This document shows, in pieces, positions 5,175-21,000 of a stretch of DNA of 21,317 nucleotides. Position 1 is the stretch's first letter. Each line of letters opens with the position of its first letter. Under the pieces are notes generated by a model that was not told the DNA's origin, did not search any database, and saw only the letters and a program-made list of their open reading frames with translations. The stretch is from a virus: positions 1 to 21,317 of the IMG/VR virus record IMGVR_UViG_3300045970_001104. The stretch is one strand, 5' to 3'. The position numbers and the translations under genes are program-made.

Positions 5175-6296
5175 ATGAGCGCCACTGCCGTTCCAGCCAA
5201 GGTCCTCAACGACCTCTTCTTCGAGAAGATCGGGTCCACCGAGGGCAAGGACAAGATCGCCGAGTTCGGAGGCACCTACATCCGGGACCGCCTCCGTGAG
5301 GTCTCGTTCGCCCGCAAGATCATCCCGCCCACTCCCGTCCAGCGGAGCGAGCTCCAGCGCTCGGTGAACCACGACACGCTCGTCAAGATCGTGGACATCG
5401 AGCCGAACTCGAAGGCCACCAGCCTGACCTTCCGCGGTCAGCCGACGGCTCGGTTCATCCGCGCCCCGCGCTTCGAGATCCCCTTCTTCACCATCTCCTC
5501 GGAGAAGTTCGAGAAGACGGAGCAGGAGCTCCTGGCGTACGAGATGCCCATCACCAAGATCATCGAGGAGAACTCGGTGAAGGACATCCAGGCGATCGAA
5601 GACCGCCAGTTCCTGATCTTCGTCGAGGCCTGCATCCAGGCGATGCAGCTCTCCGCCAACGGTGGCACCGCGACCTCCAACAAGGTCAACGGCGGCACCG
5701 CCGTGGTGTCGTCGGTCATCAAGGGCGCCGGCGCCGTCACCGGCAACGCGAACACCTTCACGGTGTACTCGCTCCAGAAGAACGACTTCGTCAAGCTGAA
5801 GCAGCTCCTGCACCGGCGCTTCCTCCGGTCGGAGCGGCTCCTGATGACGGAGCCGGACTACGACACCCTCTCGACCTGGACCATGACCGAGGTCTGGAAC
5901 ATCGCTGCCGAGACGGCGACCGAGGGCTGGAAGAGCAACACCGTGGTGGGCCTGAAGATCATCCGGACCATCAAGACCAACATCCTGCGCGAGGGCAACG
6001 TGTACTGCTTCACGGCGCCCGAGTTCTTCGGCCGGTTCTACATCCTGAACCAGACGAAGTTCTACATCGACAAGATCGCCAACCTCATCACCTGGCAGAG
6101 CTGGGAAGACATCGGGATGGGCTTCGGCAACGTCGCCGCGGTCACCAAGCTCGAGCTCTTCGGTGGTGGCGTGGTCCCCGGCGCCTCGCCGGACTCCGGC
6201 TACGCGGCCGTCCTGCCGATGGACGAGTCCGACCTGAACCCGGTCAACAACCTGGCCGACGCCGGGACGACCTACCCGCAGGTCGACCAGTTCTAA
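5175..6296 (+). CDS. Major capsid protein (HK97-fold, inferred)
   Basis: 373 residues, a usual size for a major capsid protein; AGGAGA upstream at 5162-5167. Residues ~35-60 (RLREVSFARKIIPPTPVQRSEL) resemble the N-arm. Residues 92-110 (ARFIRAPRFEIPFFTISSE) are followed by a long charged helix, 110-152 (KFEKTEQELLAYEMP, then SVKDIQAIEDRQFLIFVEACIQA), as in the E-loop and spine helix of HK97-type capsid proteins. The later part alternates strands and helices (FVKLKQLLHRRFLRSERLLMT, ETATEGWKSNTVVGLKIIRTIKTN) as in an A-domain. It sits directly after a decoration-like gene and before a strong terminator, consistent with the most abundant transcript of the block. I have not aligned it to a structure, so the fold is inferred from layout and context. 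Confidence 0.85.
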   Translation: MSATAVPAKVLNDLFFEKIGSTEGKDKIAEFGGTYIRDRLREVSFARKIIPPTPVQRSELQRSVNHDTLVKIVDIEPNSKATSLTFRGQPTARFIRAPRFEIPFFTISSEKFEKTEQELLAYEMPITKIIEENSVKDIQAIEDRQFLIFVEACIQAMQLSANGGTATSNKVNGGTAVVSSVIKGAGAVTGNANTFTVYSLQKNDFVKLKQLLHRRFLRSERLLMTEPDYDTLSTWTMTEVWNIAAETATEGWKSNTVVGLKIIRTIKTNILREGNVYCFTAPEFFGRFYILNQTKFYIDKIANLITWQSWEDIGMGFGNVAAVTKLELFGGGVVPGASPDSGYAAVLPMDESDLNPVNNLADAGTTYPQVDQF

Positions 6297-8709: not shown

Positions 8710-9933
8710 ATGACCCCAGAGATGCAGCTGGCACAGGCCCTCGGTGGCATCGACGAGAAGGAGAAGAAGGCCTACACGCTGGCCGAACTCCACGGAGCTG
8801 CCACGGCAGTGGGTGCCGGCGCTGGCGGGCTGCGCGGAGCGATGAAGCCCGGCAAGGACGGGAAGGGGAAGACGAAGAGCCGCGTAAAGGGCGCGCTGAA
8901 GGGCGCCGCGAAGGGCGCTCTCGTGGCCAACCTGGCCGCCCCGGCAATCCCTCTGGCACAGATGACGATGGCCCATCGCGGAGCGGTCGGGAAGGCCGCC
9001 AAGGACATCGCGGAGGTGTACGGCAAAGTGGCCTTCAACACAGGCGACCGCATCCGTCACAGCATCAAGAGGGTCCTCAGCAAGGAGAAGAAGGCTTTCG
9101 ACCGGCGAGACATCGCAGGGCACGCCATCAAGGGGATCGCCGGCGGCACCGCGGCGGCACTCACAGGGGCGGCCATCAACCACGTCATCAAGAAGCGCAA
9201 GGCCAAGAAGCAGGCCGCCATCCAGGCCGCCGACGCGGCTGGCCGCCACCTCGCCCAGGCCAAGACGAAGGAAGCCAACCTGATGATGGGTCAGGCTCTC
9301 CGCACCATGGCCCGCACCAGCGTCGCCAAGAAGGCTCTCGTCGGCGCGGCGGGCGGCGCGGTGCTCAACGGCGCCCGGGCAGCCGTCTCGAACGACCCCA
9401 ACGCCAGCGTGGTGGGGAGCGCCCTCACTGGCGCCGCCGGCGGCGCGGCCCTCGCCGGCGGAGCCCACCTCGGCCAGAAGGCTCTCCTGAGCAGCAAGGG
9501 TGCCTGGGGCCAGCAGGCCCGCGGGGCGATGCGGCAGGCCAACGTGGCTGCCCGGGCGGCTCCCGCCGCTGCTCCGGCAGCTGGGGCGGCCCAGAGGGCC
9601 CTCCCGGCGGCGGCTCCGCAGAAGGCGCTCCCCGCCAAGGGTGGCGCTCCCGCGCCCGCCCCGACCCCGATGGCGGCCCGCGTCATGACGGGCACCGCCC
9701 CCGGCGCCGCGCCGGACCCGAAGGCGCTGGCGAGCGCCGTGAAGAAGGCCAAGCAGGCCCCCGGCGACATGGCTGCTGAGGTCGCTCGCCGCACCGATGC
9801 GGCGAAGGGAACTTCAGTCACACCCTCTCCCATCCCCGGCCCGAAGCCGCAGTCGTACGTGGACGCGAGGCAGACGCGCATGCAGGCAATGCGGGGACGG
9901 GTCGCGAGGGCGATGGGGATGGGCCAGGCGTAG
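8710..9933 (+). CDS. Lys- and Gly-zipper-rich protein, candidate internal/ejected virion protein
   Basis: 407 residues; GGAG at 8701-8704, overlapping the preceding stop, gives a five-base spacer. It contains two EKKA copies, EKKAYTLAEL (from 18) and EKKAFDRRDI (from 126), each followed by Gly/Ala-rich segments (AVGAGAGGLRGA; AIKGIAGGTAAALTGAAI). Further Gly-zipper stretches lie near 217-225 (LVGAAGGAVL) and 237-255 (ALTGAAGGAALAGGAHLG). Between these are Lys/Arg-rich amphipathic regions. Residues ~270-345 are Ala/Pro-rich and likely disordered. Gly zippers with cationic helices are common in proteins that insert into or cross membranes, including phage ejection proteins, but also in tape-measure or lysis proteins. 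It is too short for a typical tape measure. Function is inferred only. Confidence 0.65.
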   Translation: MTPEMQLAQALGGIDEKEKKAYTLAELHGAATAVGAGAGGLRGAMKPGKDGKGKTKSRVKGALKGAAKGALVANLAAPAIPLAQMTMAHRGAVGKAAKDIAEVYGKVAFNTGDRIRHSIKRVLSKEKKAFDRRDIAGHAIKGIAGGTAAALTGAAINHVIKKRKAKKQAAIQAADAAGRHLAQAKTKEANLMMGQALRTMARTSVAKKALVGAAGGAVLNGARAAVSNDPNASVVGSALTGAAGGAALAGGAHLGQKALLSSKGAWGQQARGAMRQANVAARAAPAAAPAAGAAQRALPAAAPQKALPAKGGAPAPAPTPMAARVMTGTAPGAAPDPKALASAVKKAKQAPGDMAAEVARRTDAAKGTSVTPSPIPGPKPQSYVDARQTRMQAMRGRVARAMGMGQA

Positions 9934-9956
9934 GAGCAGACAATGAGAGGTAGCAC

Positions 9957-11762
9957 GTGGCGACTCGCCTCCCTCTCGATGCCAACGTCGTAGGCTACTG
10001 GGGCTTCGACGAAGCAAACGAGACCGACTACGGCATCGACGAGGGGAGCTACGGTCGGAACCTGACCATCGTAGCTTCCCCTTCCGTTGCCCCCTCTCGC
10101 GTCAACAACGGCCGGCAGTTCAACGGCTCCAGCACCTACGCCTACCCCATCTCTCCCGCCCCCTTCAGGCTGCTGGGGGACATGACGCTCATCGTCTGGC
10201 CCATCCTCGACCAGGTGAACAGCTCGGGCTCTCTCCTGCGCTGCTTGGTCGAGTGCTCGAGCGCCACCGACAACATCCTCTACGGGCTCTACATCTCCAG
10301 CACGGGAGAGATCATCTACCGCCACGAGTACGGCGCCAAGGTCTTGGTCGAACTCAAGACAGCAACAGGCACGGTCAGGTCTGGCCGCTACTACTCCCTC
10401 GCGCTGCTTCGGGCGGCGAACACCATCTACCTCTTCATCGACAACAAGCTCTCCTCTTGGGCTTCTTGCACCGTGAACGGGGCTACCCAATCGCCCACCC
10501 TCGCAGTCCCTGCGCCCACGGGTGGTGCGACGGCGCTCTTGAAGATCGGCAAGAGCGACCGCCTCGTCGACAACGGCTGGTGGCAGGGGATGGTGGACGA
10601 GCTCTCCATCCACGACGTGGCGAGGACGTACAGCCCCTACCTCCGCTCCGTCTACTTCCGCCTCACCCTCTACTCGAACTTCTTCCGCCTCACGGCCTAC
10701 AACAACGTGAAGAGCGTGGGTGCCGCGGAGATGGGCGGCGGCTCGAGGTGGTGGACGTACGAGCGCGACGGGTCGCTCTACGCCGTACGAGAGAACACGC
10801 TCGGACTCTTCAGTCCGGAAGTGCAAATCACTTCGGGCGGTCCGGCCGCCACGGGGGCCATCAACCCCGGGGGCACCGAGAAGCCAGAGCTCATCTATGA
10901 CGCCGCCACGGACACGCTGCTCGTAGCCTTCGTCTCTTCCGGCAAGGTCTACAAGATGACGGCAGGAGTGGGAGACCCACCTGCTACGCAGACGATGCCG
11001 TACCTGACTGAGTCTTCGACGGTGGTGAAGCTCCATCCTCGACAGTGGAGTGAAGGAGTGCGGCTTGGTGCCGGAGTCGGCCTGAAGCCGATCGAGCAGG
11101 TTGGGTACATCACCAGGACCCCTATCAAGGGCGCCTATGGAGACGCCGTCTTGGTAGGGGCAAACGAGGGCCGGCTGCGCTCCTTCCAGAAGGGTGATCA
11201 AGACGCCCCGAGCGACGCATACTCAACGGTGACGATCGCCTTCACAGGGAAGCCCAGCTTCGGCATCACCATCAGCGGGTCGAACGCCTACGGCTACTCG
11301 GTGTATTCCCTCATCGGCGGCGTTGTCCAACTCCTCGGGTACTCAACATACGTGTTGGAGAGCCAGCTGGGTCGGCACTTCTTTGCCCTCTCGACTCGTC
11401 TCCGCTATCGAAGCTACTTCGTGCGTCCTCTCACCTCTCTGGGCGTGCCTGCCCTCACGGCGCGCTCCAACACCATCAGAGACACTCTCGGCGAGGTCGA
11501 CAATTACTACCTCACCTACCCGGACACTCTCGTCCTCAACAAGGATGGAGATCTCCCAGAGACGGTGGTTGCTGGCGTGGGGTCCATCCCTTCCCCCATC
11601 TTCCCTGTTGGCTACATCACCAGAACTCCGATCAAGGGCTCCTACGGTGAGGTGGGGTATGGTGCTGGGGTCGGTGGGGGTCTTGCCTTGAGCTTCTCTT
11701 CTACCAACGCTGGCAGCTTGGCGGTTTACACACGATCCCCTCCTCGGTGGAGATACCCATGA
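9957..11762 (+). CDS. LamG/concanavalin-type lectin-domain virion protein, probable tail fibre or adsorption protein
   Basis: 601 residues from GTG 9957 with GAGAGG at 9945-9950; the nearby ATG at 9943 is out of frame and soon stops. Residues ~10-225 have the jelly-roll pattern of the LamG_3 type: VVGYWGFDE, GRQFNGSSTY, DMTLIVWP, RSGRYYSLALLRAANTIYLFIDN and WWQGMVDELSIHDVART. Residues ~260-380 look like beta-propeller blades (WWTYERDGSLYAV, LIYDAATDTLLVAFV). VGYITRTPIKG[AS]YG[DE] occurs at 382-396 and again at 551-565. LamG modules bind sugars or proteins, so a role in host recognition is likely. Its final ATGA overlaps the start of the next gene. Confidence 0.7.
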   Translation: MATRLPLDANVVGYWGFDEANETDYGIDEGSYGRNLTIVASPSVAPSRVNNGRQFNGSSTYAYPISPAPFRLLGDMTLIVWPILDQVNSSGSLLRCLVECSSATDNILYGLYISSTGEIIYRHEYGAKVLVELKTATGTVRSGRYYSLALLRAANTIYLFIDNKLSSWASCTVNGATQSPTLAVPAPTGGATALLKIGKSDRLVDNGWWQGMVDELSIHDVARTYSPYLRSVYFRLTLYSNFFRLTAYNNVKSVGAAEMGGGSRWWTYERDGSLYAVRENTLGLFSPEVQITSGGPAATGAINPGGTEKPELIYDAATDTLLVAFVSSGKVYKMTAGVGDPPATQTMPYLTESSTVVKLHPRQWSEGVRLGAGVGLKPIEQVGYITRTPIKGAYGDAVLVGANEGRLRSFQKGDQDAPSDAYSTVTIAFTGKPSFGITISGSNAYGYSVYSLIGGVVQLLGYSTYVLESQLGRHFFALSTRLRYRSYFVRPLTSLGVPALTARSNTIRDTLGEVDNYYLTYPDTLVLNKDGDLPETVVAGVGSIPSPIFPVGYITRTPIKGSYGEVGYGAGVGGGLALSFSSTNAGSLAVYTRSPPRWRYP

Positions 11763-12298
11763 TCGAAATCCATGAGCTCTCCCCTGAGGACTCTGCGCTT
11801 ATCCTTTCCGCCATGCGCGGTCCTCCGAACGCCTCATTCGGTTGCTCCATCAAGGGCTTCTTCGACGCCGTCTGTCGGAACCCAGACGGAGAGGTTGCCT
11901 GGGAGATCCACCAACCGAACCTTCAAACCGACTACGGTCGGCGCACGTGGGCAGACAGGCTGTATGCCAACAGCCTCGCCCTCTTCACCAGTCCGGTCGG
12001 AGAGCCTGCTCTCGTCTCCCGTTACGCCCTCTTCGACCACTCTGGTCAAGCGCAGATCACCGCCGCGGTTACGCCAACCGTAGACGGCAACGCAATCACC
12101 AAAACGGTCAGCACGATCTTCAACGTTCCGGCCTCCAACAGACAGCTGGCAGCTGTCGGCCTTGCGTCGACGGGTCTGGGGATCACTATCGGGGCGACCG
12201 GTGTGATGTGCTACTCCCTGATCAACCCGGTCAAGACCCAGACGACGATTCAGACGCTCGAAGTTTCCTATCGGCTCACCCTCCAGGCGGCGGTGTAA
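11759..12298 (+). CDS. Small virion protein, probable tail/fibre-associated
   Basis: 179 residues. ATG 11759 shares ATGA with the preceding stop and follows GGTGGAG (11746-11752) by six bases; a GTG at 11747 would add four residues and lacks that advantage. Residues 29-58 (CSIKGFFDAVCRNPDGEVAW, then EIHQPNL) resemble a recurring phage structural pattern, G-x-F/Y-x-A/C-V-x-[DN]-x-D-G-x-x-x-W-x-x-x-x-x-N-L, often seen near tail-fibre genes. The remainder is strand-rich and ends in a beta segment (TLEVSYRLTLQAAV). Between the lectin protein and the giant fibre protein it may be an adaptor or attachment protein. Specific role inferred. Confidence 0.6.
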   Translation: MIEIHELSPEDSALILSAMRGPPNASFGCSIKGFFDAVCRNPDGEVAWEIHQPNLQTDYGRRTWADRLYANSLALFTSPVGEPALVSRYALFDHSGQAQITAAVTPTVDGNAITKTVSTIFNVPASNRQLAAVGLASTGLGITIGATGVMCYSLINPVKTQTTIQTLEVSYRLTLQAAV

Positions 12299-12301
12299 CT
12301 C

Positions 12302-15300
12302 ATGCGCGAGATTCTCAGTCAGGTTCGCATCGAACGTACGGGGCTTGGCGGTGTTCGAGAGGTCCTCGAGAAGGCCAACACGGTATTCAAGGCAGAGCTC
12401 GCTGAGGTCACCACCTGGTGGTGGAACGCAAACACGTCCGCCCCGAACCTGTACCCGCTCATGTGGCCCTGGAGGTCACATCCCGCGCTTGCCGCAGGAG
12501 CTGTACTGACTTCCCCAGTTCGTCACAGTTTCCTTGGGCTCGACAATACCTACGGGTATCCGGCGTACAACATTCAGGCCAACATTGCGACGAACGTCGA
12601 CATCGGCAGGATGAGGATTGCCACAACTACCCCCGTGTCGGTTCTACAGGCCACCATTCCGGCGGTGTTCTCTGGCATCGGTATCGGCCATGCGCAGAAC
12701 CGTACTCTCAATTACAACAGCTACTGGGGTCACAACAACATGGTGTCGCTGACCGACCTGGGGGTTCAGCAGATCGGTATTCCTTACCTTCACCCGGCAG
12801 CAGCATGCACCGTGACCACGTCCGTGGGGCTGTCTTACATCACGTTCGTCACGAGCACGGTTAGCCTCAACTTCAGCGGAGGCCACACCCATCAGCATCT
12901 CACATCAATCTTGCGTATCGAGACGGGCGCAGATCGAGGGCAGTACTTCGTCCAACACCTCGATCGGACCAACGGCCGGCTGTATCTCCAGACGATGACG
13001 GGACAGCCGTTTATCGCACAGGCCTCTACCGTCGGAGTCGCCGCCAGCCTTTCGCAGCGTCCAGCCTTCTTCAATGAGACCGCCGTCATGTGGGCCTCTG
13101 TCGGGCGTGTCGACGTCGATGGTTTCTTCGACCCCGGTGAGAGCAGGAACTCACTCGCTTTCAGGGTTCACTTCGAGAAGAGCGGATCTCCGTCTCCGAC
13201 AAACGAGGCGCAGCGTGGATCCTACTGGTTCTCCCATCGGCCTTGGTTGTGGGGGTCAGGGGGCTTTGACAGCGCCGCCAACTACGGTTCTGAGGACAAT
13301 GGCTGTGCCTCGCATCGACTCATCTACCCCTCCATCGCCACTGAAGGGGGCTTCCACTACAACGTGAGTGGAGGAGTTACCGCATACTCTATCTGCACGG
13401 GGATGGGTCTCGACAAGGTGTCTCAGCGCCTCTGGCTCGCCCATGGCGACAGGTACACTGCCGGAGCCCCGTCCAGCATCGGGTATTGGAACTACAAGAG
13501 CCCGGAGACGATGCGGGAAGTTGCAACCACCACCGGTACTCCGAACGACCCTCTTCCGACGCCATTCACTCTTCCTGATGCCTCAACTGCGTGTGGGTGC
13601 GAGATCGGTAGTGACGGCACCGCGTACTTCCCGATCTACCACCTTACGGACAATACGAAGAACGGCGTGCTCGCCATCAAGCGCGACCTGTCCTACACGT
13701 TCCTCACTGGGGCCGCGCTCGGCACCACGGGAGGCTATGCTCCTTCCGGTCTGGTGCTCGACAAGACGCGCTTCCGCTCGGGTACGGCGGGAGACGCTGC
13801 CTCGACCGTTGCCGGCCACATCACCTCTGCTACTGGGGCGTTCGCGGCGCAGGATATCGGCCGCTGCATCACCCTCACAGGTAACGCGCAGGACAACGGG
13901 ACATACCTCATCTCGGCGAGGAACTCCGCTACCGACGTCACGGTCACAACCCTCGCCGGCGGTGCCGTCTCCTTCGCCGGGGGAAGTGGGGGCACCTACT
14001 CCATCGGCGACCGCATCTACTTGTTCACGTCGACGGACACCGCATGGAACGCGGGAAAGATGTCGTACCTGGACTCGCTCTCTCTCACTCAGCGGTTTAC
14101 CAAGACCGTGACGATGACGAACGGGACCACCATCGCACCGTACTACCTCGGCAGCGTGCCCTCCGCGTGCGTGGATCCCCTCAATGGCAACGTCTTCTGG
14201 TACTCCACCGACACGGCGGGCCGCCTCAACAAGTTTGTGGTCTCCACAGGCTTGGTCGAACAACGGCCTCTCACAGACTTCGCCGTTCAAGTTCCTGGAT
14301 CCAACTTCAACCCGACGGCTCCGACCATCGCCTACTCGGTGGCGGTCAACACCAACACCTACTTCCGCGAGCTCTGGGTCGGTACCAACCAAGGACAGTT
14401 TAAGTTCAACCCTGACACATTCTCCGCACAGTTCTCTCGCTATTTCGGACTAAACACCACGGGAACATACGCGGAAGCTGACGGCAAACTGATGCTGGAC
14501 GGCACAGACGCATCGTACACCAACATCCCCAAGGTCAGACAGTTCCTCTTCATGCCCGATGGGCAAGTCTACTGCTCACTGATGGAGATAGCCCAACAGG
14601 CCTACAGCCACCTCGTTCACCTCAATAGAGAATCGGACTGCTTCGAGGTCGGTGGGTTCCACGTCTCCGAGATGCCATCGTACTGGTCTGGGGCTCCATA
14701 CTTCACCAGCACCCCCAACATGCTGTACTTCATGGATGGGTATGGGGGATTCGTCTGGTATCGCCCGGAACGCAACCTTGGAGCGACCTATCCTGGGCTT
14801 GTTGTCGCACACGTGAGCGCCACCCACTATCAGTGGGTCGGTGGGGCGTGGGTCGCTCGGGAAGTCGTGCGTGGGTCGCTTCCGGACGCCACGAGCTCCC
14901 CGGGCTGCCTCACCAAGCCTCTGCACACGACACTTGACGACCTCGTCTTTGGGGTGAAGGTCAAGTTCACTCGACAGGCTGGGGTCGGAGGGGAGAACAC
15001 GGACTTCATCGGCCGTGTTGGCCAACTCGGTACCGCCAAGAACGACGGGGCCACTGCGTCTGGGGCCGGGAGCTTCACCGGCTCTGGTTTCTCGTCCCTC
15101 AGTTTCATCGCTGCCGACAAGGGCCGTTACTACCTCCGGGTCGAGAGTGGCGCCGACGCGGGCGTCTACATCATCTCTGCTGTGACGAACGACACTCTTC
15201 TGACTCTCCAGAAGTTCAACGGCGTGGCTCTCTTGGCCACCGCCACAGCCGGATCTCTCCAGTACACGATCTGGGATCTCGGCGCTGGCGCAGCCATCGG

Positions 15301-17695
15301 CCCAGAGAACTGCACTTTCACGGCGTGCACCGGCTACGCAAAGGACAACACCCAGGACATCACCGGCCTTCTGTACGAGGCCTACGTCGCCAAGACGCTA
15401 CTCTCGGAGCAAGAGGAGCCCATCAAGTTCGCGATGGATGTTGTGCCAGTTATGGGTGCTGGGGTAGCTCAGTGTTACGCAGAATCCTACGCCGCTGCGA
15501 ATCCCAACTTCTCTCCGTCGAAGCCTGCCCATCTGGCTCTCCCAGGGTCTCCTCTCACGGGAGGCGACCAGTTGCTGGACGGTTGTATCGCTCGGTCACT
15601 CGACGGGACCGGCAACAGAACCAACGTCCCGATTCCTACCTCCTTCATTGGGGGCACCGTCGTCAACGCTGTTGGCTGTGCCCACACGGTCGACGCGGGA
15701 CTTGATGTGGAGATCGGTTCCATCATCATTCGGGCACGCGCCAGTACGCTCGCACAATACGCGCAGTGGCTGTCTCCTCTCGCGGCCAACGGCGGGCTGC
15801 TCGGCATTCTCTACAATGCGCCGAACGCTGGCGGTGCCCCGGCAGCATCGTCTTCGATCAGGACCAGCGGCACCGCCAACATCACTGCAACACTCAGCAG
15901 CACTACGATCTCCGTCAGCTCTGGCGACTTCCTGGGAACCTCGGTCTCCTCTGGCGCAGATGGAGAAACGAGCCCTGGGACCTACGGAGTCAACGTCTTC
16001 GTCTCTGCTGTCGGCAAGTTCACAGGCCACGCCGGGAAGGCCCTCAAGATCACCTCCGGGTCCGATGCAGGGTCCTACCGGATCGTCTCCGTCAACGGAG
16101 ACGGCTCGCAGGCAACCATTTGCAACCTCGACCAGACCGCCAAGTCATTCTCCGGTGCCGCGACCGGGCTCACTTTTGCCGTGCACGACAGCGTGACGGA
16201 AGAGGATCTCATTTGCATCCCGAGCCTTGCCGTGCCCACGTACCAGTACGTCGTGGAGCGGCTGCTCTCCACAACGACGGCTCAGGTTCGTCATACCCCT
16301 GGAGTCACCTCTACCAACCAGAATTGGCAGTGTGTGAAGCCCACTTGGAGCGTGGTGAAGAGGCTCTCCTATTCGGGTACGGCCACTCCTCCTGATGTCG
16401 CCAACAACGGCACCTTCATCAGCAACGACGGCAAGGAGAACTTTAGTCAGCGCACGCTCTTCTCCGCTCAGTACTACACATCTCACGACGTGAAGATCGT
16501 GTTCGACTTGTCCGATCTTCCTTCGGCAGCACGGACCGCTCGGTGGTGGAAGTTTGGCGCCACTGGTCGAACCTCTGGCTCTTTGGCTGCGATGACCTCG
16601 ATCGACAGCATCGAGATGTTCGACACGAGCGGGAAGAGGCTGTTCCTGACGGACTACAGCCGGGCAGACTCCGTCGACTCGCAACCGAACTTCCTTGCGG
16701 CCTGCTTCAACCGCGTGGACTTCATCCAGGCAAAGCAGAGCGCAGCTCCGCAGTACGCCTGGGCCAATGGCACGGCTGCCCTTGGTGGCACGGCGGGGGA
16801 TACCATCACTCTCACCGGTGCCAACAAGTTCCTCGGCTTCCGGGTCAGGCCGAAGGGAACCAACGGCACCTCAAATGGAACGAGCACCTTTACCGCTGGC
16901 GGTGGAGATCCTCCCTTCCTGACCTCCGACGTTGGCCGCTTCTTGGTCATCGCCAGCGGGGTGAACCTCAACGCCGTCTTCCGCATCTCCTCCTACGTCT
17001 CCGCGACGCAGGTGACTGTGACCTCTCCTGCTGGCAACGCGGCCACTGTCTCCTCCGACACGGCGGTCACCTTCTCCGTGCATGAGGGCATCAACGCCGG
17101 TGGAACTGTTCCGGACTACATCGTCCTCATGAGCGGCTCCAACCAGGTGGGGCTCACCGAGATGAGCATCCTCAGCATCTCGGACGACCTGAAGACCATC
17201 GTGGTCAACGAGAAGCAGTGGCGCAGCGCGACCGGCCAGAACTGGGAGATCCGCAGGCGCTGTGTCGAGAACCGCACGGTCACCATGGGCATCGACGCTA
17301 CCAACGTCGCACGGCTCCTCTTCACCGAGCACATGTACCCGCAGCAGTCGGGTGATGTGAGCCAGGACATCAAGGGCGTCGTGAAGTTCTGGCCTGCCGA
17401 CGTGGGAGGCACCAGCCTCACCGCAGGGGTGACCGTCGCCGGCGGCAACCACCTCCAGGCTGCTGCTTCCATCTTCACGGCCGATGATGTTGGGCGTGTC
17501 CTCCTCATCACGGGAGGCACCGCCAACAAGGGACCGTACAAGATCGCCACTCTCGTCTCCGGCACTGAAGTCACGCTGGTGAACGCTTTCACCGGCGCCA
17601 GCCCGACCTTCGCCGGTGAGGTCTCTCTCACCTACACGATCAAGGGAGAGCGCCGCCACCGCTTCAGCCGCTACACGACCGCCCTGAGGCAGTAG
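12302..17695 (+). CDS. Giant fibre-like virion protein with six diverged beta modules
   Basis: 1797 residues, ATG three bases after the preceding stop. The N-terminus (1-60) is helical, then Trp/Pro-rich (WWWNANT, LMWPWRSHP), a possible virion attachment region. Six modules of about 75-85 residues share [FL]-x-x-x-D-x-G-R-x-[IL]-x-[IL]-x-S-G-x-x-x-G-x-Y-x-I followed by V-T-L and a final strand-rich tail: residues ~169-252, 491-575, 911-994, 1224-1297, 1520-1596 and 1703-1781. The spacers hold beta-propeller-like repeats (GSDGTAYFPIYHLTD; ELWVGTNQGQFKFNPDT) and other strand-rich domains. No coiled coil, membrane segment or lysozyme motif. Size, beta content and neighbours support an adsorption fibre or baseplate appendage. 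Codon bias weakens in its middle and tightens in the last ~300 residues, suggesting mosaic origin. Its TAG overlaps the next GTG. Confidence 0.7.
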   Translation: MREILSQVRIERTGLGGVREVLEKANTVFKAELAEVTTWWWNANTSAPNLYPLMWPWRSHPALAAGAVLTSPVRHSFLGLDNTYGYPAYNIQANIATNVDIGRMRIATTTPVSVLQATIPAVFSGIGIGHAQNRTLNYNSYWGHNNMVSLTDLGVQQIGIPYLHPAAACTVTTSVGLSYITFVTSTVSLNFSGGHTHQHLTSILRIETGADRGQYFVQHLDRTNGRLYLQTMTGQPFIAQASTVGVAASLSQRPAFFNETAVMWASVGRVDVDGFFDPGESRNSLAFRVHFEKSGSPSPTNEAQRGSYWFSHRPWLWGSGGFDSAANYGSEDNGCASHRLIYPSIATEGGFHYNVSGGVTAYSICTGMGLDKVSQRLWLAHGDRYTAGAPSSIGYWNYKSPETMREVATTTGTPNDPLPTPFTLPDASTACGCEIGSDGTAYFPIYHLTDNTKNGVLAIKRDLSYTFLTGAALGTTGGYAPSGLVLDKTRFRSGTAGDAASTVAGHITSATGAFAAQDIGRCITLTGNAQDNGTYLISARNSATDVTVTTLAGGAVSFAGGSGGTYSIGDRIYLFTSTDTAWNAGKMSYLDSLSLTQRFTKTVTMTNGTTIAPYYLGSVPSACVDPLNGNVFWYSTDTAGRLNKFVVSTGLVEQRPLTDFAVQVPGSNFNPTAPTIAYSVAVNTNTYFRELWVGTNQGQFKFNPDTFSAQFSRYFGLNTTGTYAEADGKLMLDGTDASYTNIPKVRQFLFMPDGQVYCSLMEIAQQAYSHLVHLNRESDCFEVGGFHVSEMPSYWSGAPYFTSTPNMLYFMDGYGGFVWYRPERNLGATYPGLVVAHVSATHYQWVGGAWVAREVVRGSLPDATSSPGCLTKPLHTTLDDLVFGVKVKFTRQAGVGGENTDFIGRVGQLGTAKNDGATASGAGSFTGSGFSSLSFIAADKGRYYLRVESGADAGVYIISAVTNDTLLTLQKFNGVALLATATAGSLQYTIWDLGAGAAIGPENCTFTACTGYAKDNTQDITGLLYEAYVAKTLLSEQEEPIKFAMDVVPVMGAGVAQCYAESYAAANPNFSPSKPAHLALPGSPLTGGDQLLDGCIARSLDGTGNRTNVPIPTSFIGGTVVNAVGCAHTVDAGLDVEIGSIIIRARASTLAQYAQWLSPLAANGGLLGILYNAPNAGGAPAASSSIRTSGTANITATLSSTTISVSSGDFLGTSVSSGADGETSPGTYGVNVFVSAVGKFTGHAGKALKITSGSDAGSYRIVSVNGDGSQATICNLDQTAKSFSGAATGLTFAVHDSVTEEDLICIPSLAVPTYQYVVERLLSTTTAQVRHTPGVTSTNQNWQCVKPTWSVVKRLSYSGTATPPDVANNGTFISNDGKENFSQRTLFSAQYYTSHDVKIVFDLSDLPSAARTARWWKFGATGRTSGSLAAMTSIDSIEMFDTSGKRLFLTDYSRADSVDSQPNFLAACFNRVDFIQAKQSAAPQYAWANGTAALGGTAGDTITLTGANKFLGFRVRPKGTNGTSNGTSTFTAGGGDPPFLTSDVGRFLVIASGVNLNAVFRISSYVSATQVTVTSPAGNAATVSSDTAVTFSVHEGINAGGTVPDYIVLMSGSNQVGLTEMSILSISDDLKTIVVNEKQWRSATGQNWEIRRRCVENRTVTMGIDATNVARLLFTEHMYPQQSGDVSQDIKGVVKFWPADVGGTSLTAGVTVAGGNHLQAAASIFTADDVGRVLLITGGTANKGPYKIATLVSGTEVTLVNAFTGASPTFAGEVSLTYTIKGERRHRFSRYTTALRQ
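12806..13057 (+). repeat. Fibre beta module 1
   Basis: Residues ~169-252 of the giant protein. Core: LTSILRIETGADRGQYFVQHL, followed by a strand LYLQTM. It lacks the D-x-G-R start of later copies but keeps the G-A-D-x-G-x-Y pattern seen in module 3. Limits are approximate. Confidence 0.55.
13772..14026 (+). repeat. Fibre beta module 2
   Basis: Residues ~491-575. Core: FAAQDIGRCITLTGNAQDNG, then TYLISARNSATDVTVTTL and a final strand-rich tail. Aligns with modules 5 and 6 through D-[IV]-G-R and D/E-V-T-V/L. Confidence 0.65.
15032..15283 (+). repeat. Fibre beta module 3
   Basis: Residues ~911-994. Core: FIAADKGRYYLRVESGADAG, then VYIISAVTNDTLLTLQKF and SLQYTIWDLG. Confidence 0.65.
15971..16192 (+). 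repeat. Fibre beta module 4
   Basis: Residues ~1224-1297. Core: FTGHAGKALKITSGSDAGSY, then RIVSVNGDGSQATICNL and LTFAVHD. The D-x-G-R start is changed to H-A-G-K. Confidence 0.6.
16859..17089 (+). repeat. Fibre beta module 5
   Basis: Residues ~1520-1596. Core: FLTSDVGRFLVIASGVNLNA, then VFRISSYVSATQVTVTSP and VTFSVHEG. Confidence 0.65.
17408..17644 (+). repeat. Fibre beta module 6
   Basis: Residues ~1703-1781, ending 16 residues before the C-terminus. Core: FTADDVGRVLLITGGTANKG, then PYKIATLVSGTEVTLVNAF and VSLTYTIKG. Closest to module 5. Confidence 0.65.
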
Positions 17696-19839
17696 TGACC
17701 GTCTCCGCCATCAGCCAGGTGACGCAGGAGGGGTACGTCGAGTACCTCTCCTCGTTCTCCAAGAGCGGCGTGATGCATCTCGCCTGGACCACGCAAGGGT
17801 CCGGGGTAGATAGGATCCTTCAGTGGAAGCCCCACACGAGTGGGGACTTCACCGAGGTGGCTGGGGCCACTCAAGCCTCGTTCCACAACGTAGCGACGAT
17901 CTACGTTCCGTCGTCGAACGCGGTCGTCGCGGTCTTCGATGTTGGTGGAACGGACCTCTACGTGGCGCGGTTCGATGAGACTACTGGGGCCACGCTTGCA
18001 CTGCCGACCCGTCTCGGTGTTGGGATGAAGCCATCCATCCTGTACCGCGGCGGCGTGCAGGGGCCCACGCTCGAGATGGTGTACGGGAACCCGAGACTGC
18101 CACAGGTCTACCTTCGGGAGAGCTTGGATGGCGGGGTGACGTGGAGCGGGGAGCGTCCCGTTCTTTCCAACTACGTCCGCAACACCGTCGACATCGCAGC
18201 CGTTCCCTTCGATGACACGCATGTCTCCGTTCTCCAGCTCGGCAACGATGCAAGGCCGATGTTGGAGACGGGCTCGTACACCCGCACCCGGCCGGTTGCC
18301 GGGATCCTGAAGCACCCGACGCTGCCCGACCAGTTCTACGTCGTCGAAGGGAGCAATCGTGGTACTCGCCTTGGTGACTATGTACGTGGCGCCGTACTCG
18401 GTAGCAGTCTCAAGTTCCTCGACGGCGACCGGTACGGATCTGATGACGGTCTTGGCCCCCTCAGCCTGTTCAGTGGCTCTGGCCTCGTCCCGACAGTCGT
18501 CACTGCCCAAGTGGCGGGAGCAGCTCTTGGAGACGTCGTTGGGCCGGCGCAGGCAGCGGACCTTGCACTCGGCCCGACCTACCTCTACGCGGCTCTCTAC
18601 TCCGATGCAGTCGCCAACCAGGGCACGCTCTACGTTGCGCCCATCGCCGGGGGATCATCGGGGACTCCCATCACAGGCATCGCGGCAGTACACGCGGTCT
18701 CGGTGAGCAACGGCGTCCTCTTCGTGGCAACGCTCGAGGGGACGCAGGAGAAGCTCCGCATCTTCACGGAGAACGGGCTCACTCCTATCGCGCAGACCGA
18801 CCACAAGATGCCCGCAAGAGTGAATAAGCTTCTTGCGGTGATGTCTTCTCCCTCCGTCGGGTACATCTACGTCTCGATGTTGGACCGCTTCAACGTCTAC
18901 AGGGTCGAGGGCCTTACCAGCCCCATTCGCATGGTGATGACGACCCCCGTGCTGAGTCGGGGATCCTTCTTCCAAGCGAAGGTGCTCTCCACGGGAAACA
19001 TCCTCGTGGCGATGGGGGATGGTGGCATCATCGCCCTGACCCCCGAGGGCGGCGTCATCTCCGAGACCGTGCTCACCGGGAAGATGGCTTCGCCCTGGGT
19101 CGCGAGCAAGGTTTACGCCTTGAACGACATCGTGGCGCCTACGTCCGAGTCGCCTTACGCCCAGTACCGCAGGTACTTCCGCTGCTCGGTCGGGGGCACG
19201 AGCTACATCACCGAACCGCTCTGGTCACCGAGCGGGACCGTCATCGACAACACGGCGCAGTGGGTTGAGGTCGGCTCTGTCTCCGCCATCATCACGGGCC
19301 TCGAGGTCGATGAATCGAGATCTAAGATCTTCGCGGTTGGTGTTGTGGGAGGGAGCTCCGGCACATCGGGAAGGGTGTACTGCATCAGCGCCCCTGGTGT
19401 GGTCCCTGCCAACCCCATCTGGCGCGGCGTCGGCAGTGTTTGGTGGTTTGCCCGGCCTGACACGTTCTTTGAAGTGACGGCCTCTGTGACGTATCCACCA
19501 AACAGTAACCCGTTCGCGTTCGACTCTTATGGTGCCGGGATAGGCACGGAGCAGTCCGTCGAGATCCGCTCACCGGGATCCTTCTCTGGGATCCAGATGC
19601 TTGGTGGCGGCGACTGGGAAGCCACCAACGGCCTTGAGCTCCAGCTCCTGCGTCCTGATGGAGTCTGGGTCACGGTTCGGGCTTGGCCTCCCGGTTTGGT
19701 CGTGGGCCTCGGCAGTTCCGAAGTCCTCTTTACGCCCCCGTCTTGGTGGGGGCTCTACGGAGGTTCTTACTGCGCCAGGTTCCACGGGATCGGTGTTCGA
19801 TTCTCCGGCTCCGTAGATAGCCTCCGAGTCCTGTCCTGA
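17695..19839 (+). CDS. Adsorption protein with Asp box and C-terminal CBM5/12-like domain
   Basis: 714 residues from GTG 17695, which shares one base with the TAG of the fibre gene (TAGTG), so translation is probably coupled. The first ~450 residues are strand-rich with propeller-like blades (VMHLAWTTQ, NAVVAVFDVGGTDLYVARFD). Residues 143-150, SLDGGVTW, are a BNR/Asp-box as in sialidase-type propellers; only one clear copy is seen and no catalytic Arg triad was identified, so sialidase activity is not claimed. Residues ~466-527 (SPWVASKVYALNDIV...YRRYFRCSVGGTSYITEPLW...QWVEVG) match the small CBM5/12-like module frequent in phage tail proteins. The C-terminus is another beta domain. Role: host-surface binding, inferred. 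Confidence 0.7.
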   Translation: MTVSAISQVTQEGYVEYLSSFSKSGVMHLAWTTQGSGVDRILQWKPHTSGDFTEVAGATQASFHNVATIYVPSSNAVVAVFDVGGTDLYVARFDETTGATLALPTRLGVGMKPSILYRGGVQGPTLEMVYGNPRLPQVYLRESLDGGVTWSGERPVLSNYVRNTVDIAAVPFDDTHVSVLQLGNDARPMLETGSYTRTRPVAGILKHPTLPDQFYVVEGSNRGTRLGDYVRGAVLGSSLKFLDGDRYGSDDGLGPLSLFSGSGLVPTVVTAQVAGAALGDVVGPAQAADLALGPTYLYAALYSDAVANQGTLYVAPIAGGSSGTPITGIAAVHAVSVSNGVLFVATLEGTQEKLRIFTENGLTPIAQTDHKMPARVNKLLAVMSSPSVGYIYVSMLDRFNVYRVEGLTSPIRMVMTTPVLSRGSFFQAKVLSTGNILVAMGDGGIIALTPEGGVISETVLTGKMASPWVASKVYALNDIVAPTSESPYAQYRRYFRCSVGGTSYITEPLWSPSGTVIDNTAQWVEVGSVSAIITGLEVDESRSKIFAVGVVGGSSGTSGRVYCISAPGVVPANPIWRGVGSVWWFARPDTFFEVTASVTYPPNSNPFAFDSYGAGIGTEQSVEIRSPGSFSGIQMLGGGDWEATNGLELQLLRPDGVWVTVRAWPPGLVVGLGSSEVLFTPPSWWGLYGGSYCARFHGIGVRFSGSVDSLRVLS

Positions 19840-19870
19840 GCTCCTCCTATGCTCAGTCCCCCTTGCCCTC

Positions 19871-19876
19871 TATCAT
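19871..19876 (+). promoter_or_regulatory. Possible -10 element TATCAT
   Basis: TATCAT lies eight bases before ATG 19885 in the 45-base gap after the 714-residue gene. No convincing -35 hexamer is found 17 bases upstream and no ribosome binding site is obvious, so this is only a weak hint of a leaderless start like that suggested at 8240-8268. Confidence 0.2.
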
Positions 19877-19884
19877 GGTGCTGC

Positions 19885-20052
19885 ATGGCCGACGCCTACG
19901 TCACTCTCGCCTCCATCCAGCCTTCGGGCTCCACCCAGGTCGAGACCCCTCAGGAATCGAAGACGCAGGGCGGCCGCTCCATGAAGCAGGGCATCTACGC
20001 TGAGAAGCGGAAGAACGCCGTCGACAGCACATCCACGAAGCTCCCGGAGTAA
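19885..20052 (+). CDS. 55-residue hydrophilic protein of unknown function
   Basis: ATG 19885 gives MADAYVTLASIQPSGSTQVE and a polar, Gln/Ser/Lys-rich remainder ending in TKLPE. The frame is open upstream to ATG 19849, which would add 12 residues rich in Cys and Pro (MLSPPCPLSWCC) that look non-coding, so the later start is preferred. No ribosome binding site is clear. It ends three bases before the next gene. The size and polarity give no clue to function; a minor virion or regulatory peptide is possible. Confidence 0.5.
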   Translation: MADAYVTLASIQPSGSTQVETPQESKTQGGRSMKQGIYAEKRKNAVDSTSTKLPE

Positions 20053-20055
20053 GAG

Positions 20056-21000
20056 ATGGCCATCGCCTACCCGTTCACCGCTCGCTACTTCGTCCGCTTC
20101 CGCCACTCGGACACGGCCCTCACTCCGACGTTCAACTACTTCAAGAGGGCGGACACCCTCGTCGGTGTGACGTCTCCCCCCATCCTCGAGGTGGGCGGCG
20201 GGACGTACTACTTCGACTACAGCTTCACCACCTCGGCGGCGCCGGACCTCGTCTTCGAGATCGATGGCGGCTCCTCCATCCCCACGGAGGAGGTGCGCTA
20301 CATCTCCGACACCATCTCCATCAAGGACCACTTCATCGACCAGCCTACGTCCCAAGTCGTCTCCGACGTCTGGACGGACGCCGTGGTCTACGCTGCCGGC
20401 ACGAAGGGGAAGCGCGTCGCCGATGTTGGCGTGACAGGAGATGCCTACAACGCGGGTACTCTCTTCGGCGCCATCGTCAACGCCATCGAGATGATTCGAG
20501 GTGACGGCCACGGCAACACGGCAGGCAATAGCGTGAAGCAGGCCTACGACCGCATCGGGACTCCCGTCGGACTGACCATCTCGGCCGACCTCCAGACGAT
20601 CGACTCCCACATCACCACGTCGACCGGCGACACCGGAACGGCCATCACGGCTGCCGTCGTCAGCATCAAGGGAGGGGACGGCCGAGACCTCACCCAGATC
20701 TACAACTTCTCCAGTCACTTCGATGGGCAGATCGACCTCGTGCAGGCGATGGTCGCGCGGTGTCTCGGGATGCTCCACGAGAACGCGGTGCTCGACAAGT
20801 GCATCTACGACATCTCGACCAACAAGTTGAGCTCGGCCCGGCTGCGGATGTACGACAGCTCTACCAACGCCCAGGCCGCCAAGGCGTTGGGGGATGGCAC
20901 CACCTACACCACCGGCATGATCGGGCAGCACTCCATCGTCGCCGAGTACTCGGGCAGCAACATGTCCAACTACATGGTGGTGCGCGAGCTGCCGCTGTAA
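20056..21000 (+). CDS. Virion structural protein, probable fibre/baseplate-associated
   Basis: 314 residues; GGAG at 20046-20049 lies six bases before the ATG and overlaps the end of the previous gene. The N-terminal ~90 residues are beta-rich (FTARYFVRFRHSD, GGGTYYFDYSF). The middle is helical with DVWTDAVVYAAG and GTLFGAIVNAIEMIRGDG. Residues 235-247 (RCLGMLHENAVLD), followed by KLSSARLRMYDSS and a C-terminal strand (IVAEYSG, NYMVVRELPL), resemble from memory a conserved phage structural protein in which R-x-L-G-x-x-H-E-N-x-V is strongly kept. The exact role is unknown. It is followed at once by TAAGGAG and the next gene, an operon arrangement. Confidence 0.65.
   Translation: MAIAYPFTARYFVRFRHSDTALTPTFNYFKRADTLVGVTSPPILEVGGGTYYFDYSFTTSAAPDLVFEIDGGSSIPTEEVRYISDTISIKDHFIDQPTSQVVSDVWTDAVVYAAGTKGKRVADVGVTGDAYNAGTLFGAIVNAIEMIRGDGHGNTAGNSVKQAYDRIGTPVGLTISADLQTIDSHITTSTGDTGTAITAAVVSIKGGDGRDLTQIYNFSSHFDGQIDLVQAMVARCLGMLHENAVLDKCIYDISTNKLSSARLRMYDSSTNAQAAKALGDGTTYTTGMIGQHSIVAEYSGSNMSNYMVVRELPL

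Follow-up and report, generated by a model that had tools for sequence, protein, structure and literature searches.

Polysialic acid is bound by three regions of the K1F endosialidase, its beta-barrel among them (PMC12632334), the barrel insertion domain of the LKA1 tailspike gp49 has a defined span and contributes to the active site (PMC5701251), and the FCCH region of ubiquitin E1 is likewise an inserted domain (PMC12355090). Barrel domains of this known kind are commonly spliced by phages into tailspikes and other virion proteins, and the 1797-residue protein analyzed here, encoded in a 21,317-base stretch of viral DNA (the window), is a predicted phage virion protein with insertions of the FCCH/endosialidase type, unusual in that it and its homologues carry six to nine copies. 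As in LKA1 gp49 (PDB 4ru4), a six-stranded barrel interrupts another fold of a phage protein, but LKA1 has one copy in a beta-helix near the active site, whereas the 1797-residue protein has six, one of them in a propeller, and no known active site. Like the K1F and phi92 endosialidases (PF12195), it is predicted to combine a propeller with an inserted barrel of this fold, as seen for module 2, and there are weak sub-threshold sequence matches; the 1797-residue protein nevertheless falls far below the PF12195 cut-off, and five of its six copies lie outside the propeller. The modules, each of about 80 residues (n = 6), are contained in a single open frame:

12302–17695, plus strand: open reading frame of 1797 aa, a giant predicted virion protein with modules; seven other IMG/VR contigs encode homologues, of which one is truncated and the rest are complete
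12812–13063, plus strand: module 1 (aa ~171–254), the most diverged copy; profile, leave-one-out (weak by HMM), strand order in the model
13778–14020, plus strand: module 2 (aa ~493–573), predicted inside a propeller blade; profile, leave-one-out, AlphaFold2 (AF2) fragment model
15026–15280, plus strand: module 3 (aa ~909–993); profile, leave-one-out, AF2 fragment model
15947–16195, plus strand: module 4 (aa ~1216–1298); profile, leave-one-out
16844–17095, plus strand: module 5 (aa ~1515–1598); profile, leave-one-out
17408–17653, plus strand: module 6 (aa ~1703–1784), the copy folded alone; profile, leave-one-out, AF2 of the isolated module

A joint profile of all copies found the six modules of the window at i-E values of 1.8e-17 to 6.4e-24, which are partly circular. 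Because a profile built from the copies retrieves them by construction, leave-one-position-out was used as the deciding test. Copies 2–6 of the window were recovered by HMMs of the other positions at E values of 4.5e-7 to 8.6e-11 (single-sequence searches, Z = 1000), and copy 1 was recovered weakly in the window (E 0.34) and at 2.8e-4 in the homologue L003; the corresponding profile-profile values were 98.6–99.6% for copies 2–6 and 96.0% for copy 1. Pairwise scores of copies 2–6 exceeded nearly all of 1000 shuffles, and the best E value among 10,380 in a reversed-ORF control was 0.008. The six copies are thus homologous, as a preliminary description of this DNA had proposed: every position was retrieved by a profile built without it, copy 1 most weakly. 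The same description had noted that the modules are not in tandem, and they do occupy six scattered positions between aa ~171 and ~1784; the D-x-G-R core it had given for them holds in copies 2, 3, 5, and 6 but reads LTSI in copy 1 and HAGK in copy 4. The module search found no further modules elsewhere in the window; a half-module candidate after copy 5 (aa ~1606–1637) is plausible by eye but has an hhalign score of only 5%.

The AlphaFold2 model of module 6, made with 53 module sequences, has a pLDDT of 90.6 and contains six strands and a short helix, in a strand order common to modules 1, 2, and 3 of a fragment model; modules 4 and 5 were assigned to the fold by sequence homology. Predicted secondary structure is alike in copies 1, 2, 3, and 6; the preliminary description had held that differing folds among the six segments would speak against a shared module. 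Both VIA and Foldseek matched the module 6 model to one small six-stranded barrel fold. The best structural match is the decoration protein of Arthrobacter phage Bridgette (PDB 8eci; VIA Z 8.0, Foldseek E 3.1e-3), which is a stand-alone protein of 126 residues, in contrast to the repeated inserts in a giant protein seen here. Further VIA matches were the FCCH region of ubiquitin E1 (Z 7.7, rmsd 2.2 over 72 residues), residues 284–372 of the LKA1 tailspike (Z 7.3, 76 residues), residues 584–672 of the Carin 1 nozzle (Z 7.2), the phi92 endosialidase (Z 6.7), and residues 423–513 of a K1F-type endosialidase (Z 5.9–6.0, 2.3 Å over 72 residues), with the endosialidase superpositions as a whole ranging over Z 5.9–6.7 and rmsd 2.3–2.5 with 72–76 residues aligned; GTA and tail-tube proteins were also among the matches. 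These Z values are moderate, and even the top value of 8.0 is at a level still compatible with a mere common arrangement; the assignment is credible because unrelated proteins agree on one fold, the full module is covered, and most of the matches other than E1 are phage virion proteins. Judging from the predicted structures, the module is very probably a small six-stranded FCCH/endosialidase-type barrel.

The module is predicted to share the fold of the E1 FCCH barrel, which is also an inserted domain, but identity is 8%, and no PF16190 (E1_FCCH; cut-off 29.5 bits) match was found at E ≤ 10 in eight phage records; the module model likewise aligns to the published domain span of the LKA1-type insertion barrel. 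Two of the modules matched PF12195 (End_beta_barrel) below threshold (best E 0.0047), the best score being 15.7 bits in the L149 contig against a cut-off of 35 bits, with none in the window's own phage. Phrog_32881, annotated with pectin lyase activity, was matched by 10 of the 53 modules (best E 7.8e-7), and the top match in a BFVD search was a pectin-lyase-like protein of Bcep22 (E 9.5e-5). Short sub-threshold matches of the module profile to frataxin and D-Ala-D-Ala carboxypeptidase among PDB sequences were rejected, as were Flagellin_D3, PPC, and other sub-threshold Pfam entries. Where the preliminary description could assign no named family, the fold can now be named (the K1F/phi92 endosialidase, LKA1, and FCCH-type barrel), while by sequence the module stays below the Pfam cut-offs; the profile search against protein families that it had suggested gave phrog_32881 weakly and no Pfam call above cut-off.

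The preliminary description had also placed the modules among propeller-like regions and as possible insertions between blades. One such region is predicted:

13301–14845, plus strand: predicted seven-bladed beta-propeller with module 2 inside (aa ~334–848); AF2 fragment model and VIA

The AF2 model of aa 1–1010, made with eight sequences, has a mean pLDDT of 52 and is poor outside the propeller and the modules, with values mostly of 60–89 from aa ~370 to ~710. Residues 334–848 matched the seven-bladed propellers RACK1, YncE, and G-beta at VIA Z values of 20.6–22.6, and module 2 is modeled between two strands of one blade. The propeller is flanked by module 1 on its N-terminal side and module 3 on its C-terminal side, and modules 4–6 lie among unnamed domains, with no named domain found by sequence search in aa 1301–1513. 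The propeller claim therefore stands for this single region and not for the remainder of the protein, and insertion into blades applies to copy 2 and is not general, given that the other five copies fall outside it.

The window is identical to part of the 198-kb IMG/VR contig 3300045971_000895 over the 15 kb compared. Homologues of the 1797-residue protein were found in seven other contigs, at identities of 79% (L004), 51% (L003), 39% (L067), 37% (L147), 34% (L149, whose 3′ end is missing), and 29–41% by segment (L150 and L151); no relatives were found in the isolate genome collection, and searches of the whole protein against Pfam, PHROGs, PDB sequences, and INPHARED gave no useful match. A DNA pattern for D-V-G-R-x-L-x-I brought up the homologue L067 as well as nozzle-like module carriers. 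Module order is the same in all seven homologues, the truncated L149 having detectable copies 2–5 and neither a detectable copy 1 nor its copy 6. In a FastTree phylogeny the modules group mostly by position and not by genome, which would place the duplications before the split of these phages. L150 and L151 carry three additional copies of a sub-type. Two of the three extra sites are clean insertions, about 80 residues being absent there from the six other homologues; alignment at the remaining site (L150 aa ~818–907) is ragged. A gain in the L150/L151 pair would be simpler than a loss in six lineages.

The gene lies between those for the major capsid protein and a tail-sheath-like protein, in a much-diverged block:

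8749–20061, plus strand: diverged block between contigs 3300045971_000895 and 3300045747_000694; blastn and per-gene protein identity
9957–11762, plus strand: 601-aa neighbor, a conserved upstream partner whose concanavalin A-like lectin domain matches Laminin_G_3 (28.3 bits in Pfam, cut-off 27.6); orthologue in seven of seven relatives
11747–12298, plus strand: 183-aa neighbor, a conserved upstream partner; orthologues in relatives
17695–19839, plus strand: 714-aa neighbor, aa 461–525 matching head-decoration phrog_20658 (E 2.2e-7); orthologues in relatives

The genes for the 601-, 183-, 1797-, and 714-aa proteins stay together in relatives whose contigs extend far enough; the final ~140 residues of the 714-aa protein are without a match in relatives. 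Upstream of the module gene are a terminase and the major capsid protein (phrog_2522), and downstream are a sheath-like protein (Phage_sheath_1C sub-threshold, recognized by eye in L147) and a collagen-like tail fiber. A tRNA-Arg predicted within the capsid gene (5719–5810, minus strand) is probably a false positive. Distant relatives of the capsid protein and terminase occur in Salmonella phage Arash and in Vibrio phages of ~180–187 kb. Arash gp229 (2548 aa) is similarly a giant structural protein encoded soon after a homologous capsid gene (capsid identity 30%), but it has neither a module match nor detectable homology to the 1797-residue protein; gp229, whose gene (L153 13822–21468) takes the equivalent place behind the capsid gene of this cultured relative, has the look of a series of Ig-like repeats.

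Between the window's phage and 3300045747_000694, nucleotide identity is 89.7% up to position 8748, drops to scattered matches mostly of 64–73%, and is 87% again from 20062; the capsid protein is 99% identical, as against 49% in the block, whose four genes range over 43–50%. Some genes ahead of the 8.75-kb border are also less alike (54–76%), so the block, although its border is sharp in the nucleotide comparison, is not the sole variable region. The block would be an exchanged or fast-evolving cassette with a pattern typical of host-interaction genes, other causes being possible, and fits a host-interaction or decoration cassette.

The module is also reused in other phage proteins. Carriers include ~1500-aa proteins in relatives (E values of 1.8e-10 and 6.6e-9), phage Rctr197k, and MW202566, and in the nozzle-like proteins L047, L069, L088, and L029 one or two related modules are found close to a conserved nozzle-like N-terminal region. 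The ~1500-aa counterpart in the window's phage (L017 4412–8911, 1499 aa, with a Baseplate_J match) has only weak module matches, its full-sequence E value of 1.4e-10 being summed from several weak stretches. Several degenerate half-motifs of the module are seen in this protein and in a second one of 1425 aa (L017 11529–15806). Elsewhere in this phage, a 2103-aa frame (L018 714–7025) has matches to several RNA polymerase beta-subunit families spread over it; a multi-subunit RNA polymerase, perhaps a fused one, is apparently encoded.

Gene position and neighbors suggest a virion or surface location for the 1797-residue protein, which probably has a surface or appendage role. Taken as a whole, our preferred explanation, which we hold to be somewhat likelier to be right than wrong, is that the modules are exposed accessory barrels providing both contacts and spacing. 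The protein would be an appendage or decoration exposed on the virion and in contact with the surface of the host, and the barrels, seated in loops and between domains of this giant protein, would offer weak, multivalent contacts with glycans or neighboring virion subunits and would also keep the propeller and other domains apart. Surface loops can take up such compact domains with the scaffold undisturbed, and the irregular spacing would follow from this; we count the lectin-like and head-decoration matches of the neighbors and the divergence of the cassette in support of a host-surface role. The preliminary description had offered spacer or sugar-binding functions; the latter has a precedent in the K1F barrel of the same fold, and by that analogy glycan binding here is conceivable, if somewhat less likely than not.

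Alternatively, and with a chance that we put a little short of even, the barrels may be purely structural, as spacers or as oligomerization or packing domains that determine how long and how rigid the appendage is, without a ligand of their own. In seven of seven relatives the modules show slightly higher conservation than the remainder of the protein (e.g., 45% vs 35% in L067 and L147), which favors such a role and counts against specificity-determining tips and glycan specificity, and the same fold occurs in capsid decoration, nozzle, and tail-tube proteins, where the partners are other virion subunits. Irregularly spaced copies would however make a poor ruler, and barrels of this fold bear a mapped polysialic-acid site in the K1F endosialidase (PMC12632334) and contribute to the active site in LKA1 (PMC5701251).

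It is improbable that the protein is an active depolymerase in which barrels feed glycan to a catalytic propeller: a propeller with an inserted barrel is the endosialidase arrangement, and the Foldseek matches of the aa 1–1010 model include endosialidases NF and phi92 near the top, but the propeller best matches generic seven-bladed propellers, the Pfam search of the protein gave no sialidase or hydrolase family match, and no catalytic residues were identified. A tail-nozzle relative, with propeller and inserted barrels as in T7-like nozzles and a place in the neck or tail conduit, is very unlikely, for although the top Foldseek match of that model is the LME-1 nozzle (E 1.3e-7), nozzle-like proteins bear the same module, and the gene sits between head and tail genes, the TM-score is only 0.14–0.17 (the model being poor outside the propeller) with endosialidases scoring about level, Phage_nozzle (PF25675) is absent from the Pfam matches of the protein at E ≤ 1, the nozzle-like N-terminal sequence of L029, L047, L069, and L088 is absent from it, and the sheath-like gene downstream suggests a contractile tail, where a podoviral nozzle would be unexpected.

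A broader and speculative proposal, which we regard as unlikely though worth stating, is that the module is a mobile domain repeatedly inserted by large phages into virion-protein loops of the head-tail cassette and baseplate, that its copy number and position form a tunable adhesion array, and that phages retaining a common capsid trade the block as a whole. The repeat, missed by Pfam and NCBIfam and caught weakly by PHROGs, now has a predicted fold and precedents, and the block is a candidate for a host-interaction cassette in a lineage of uncultured phages of ~200 kb. The extra copies in L150 and L151 present a natural domain insertion with empty (six homologues) and filled (two) sites side by side, and such sites of domain gain would mark loops that tolerate insertion. 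With its many scattered copies and divergent gene block, the locus offers a clear case of phage surface proteins assembled from insertable parts.
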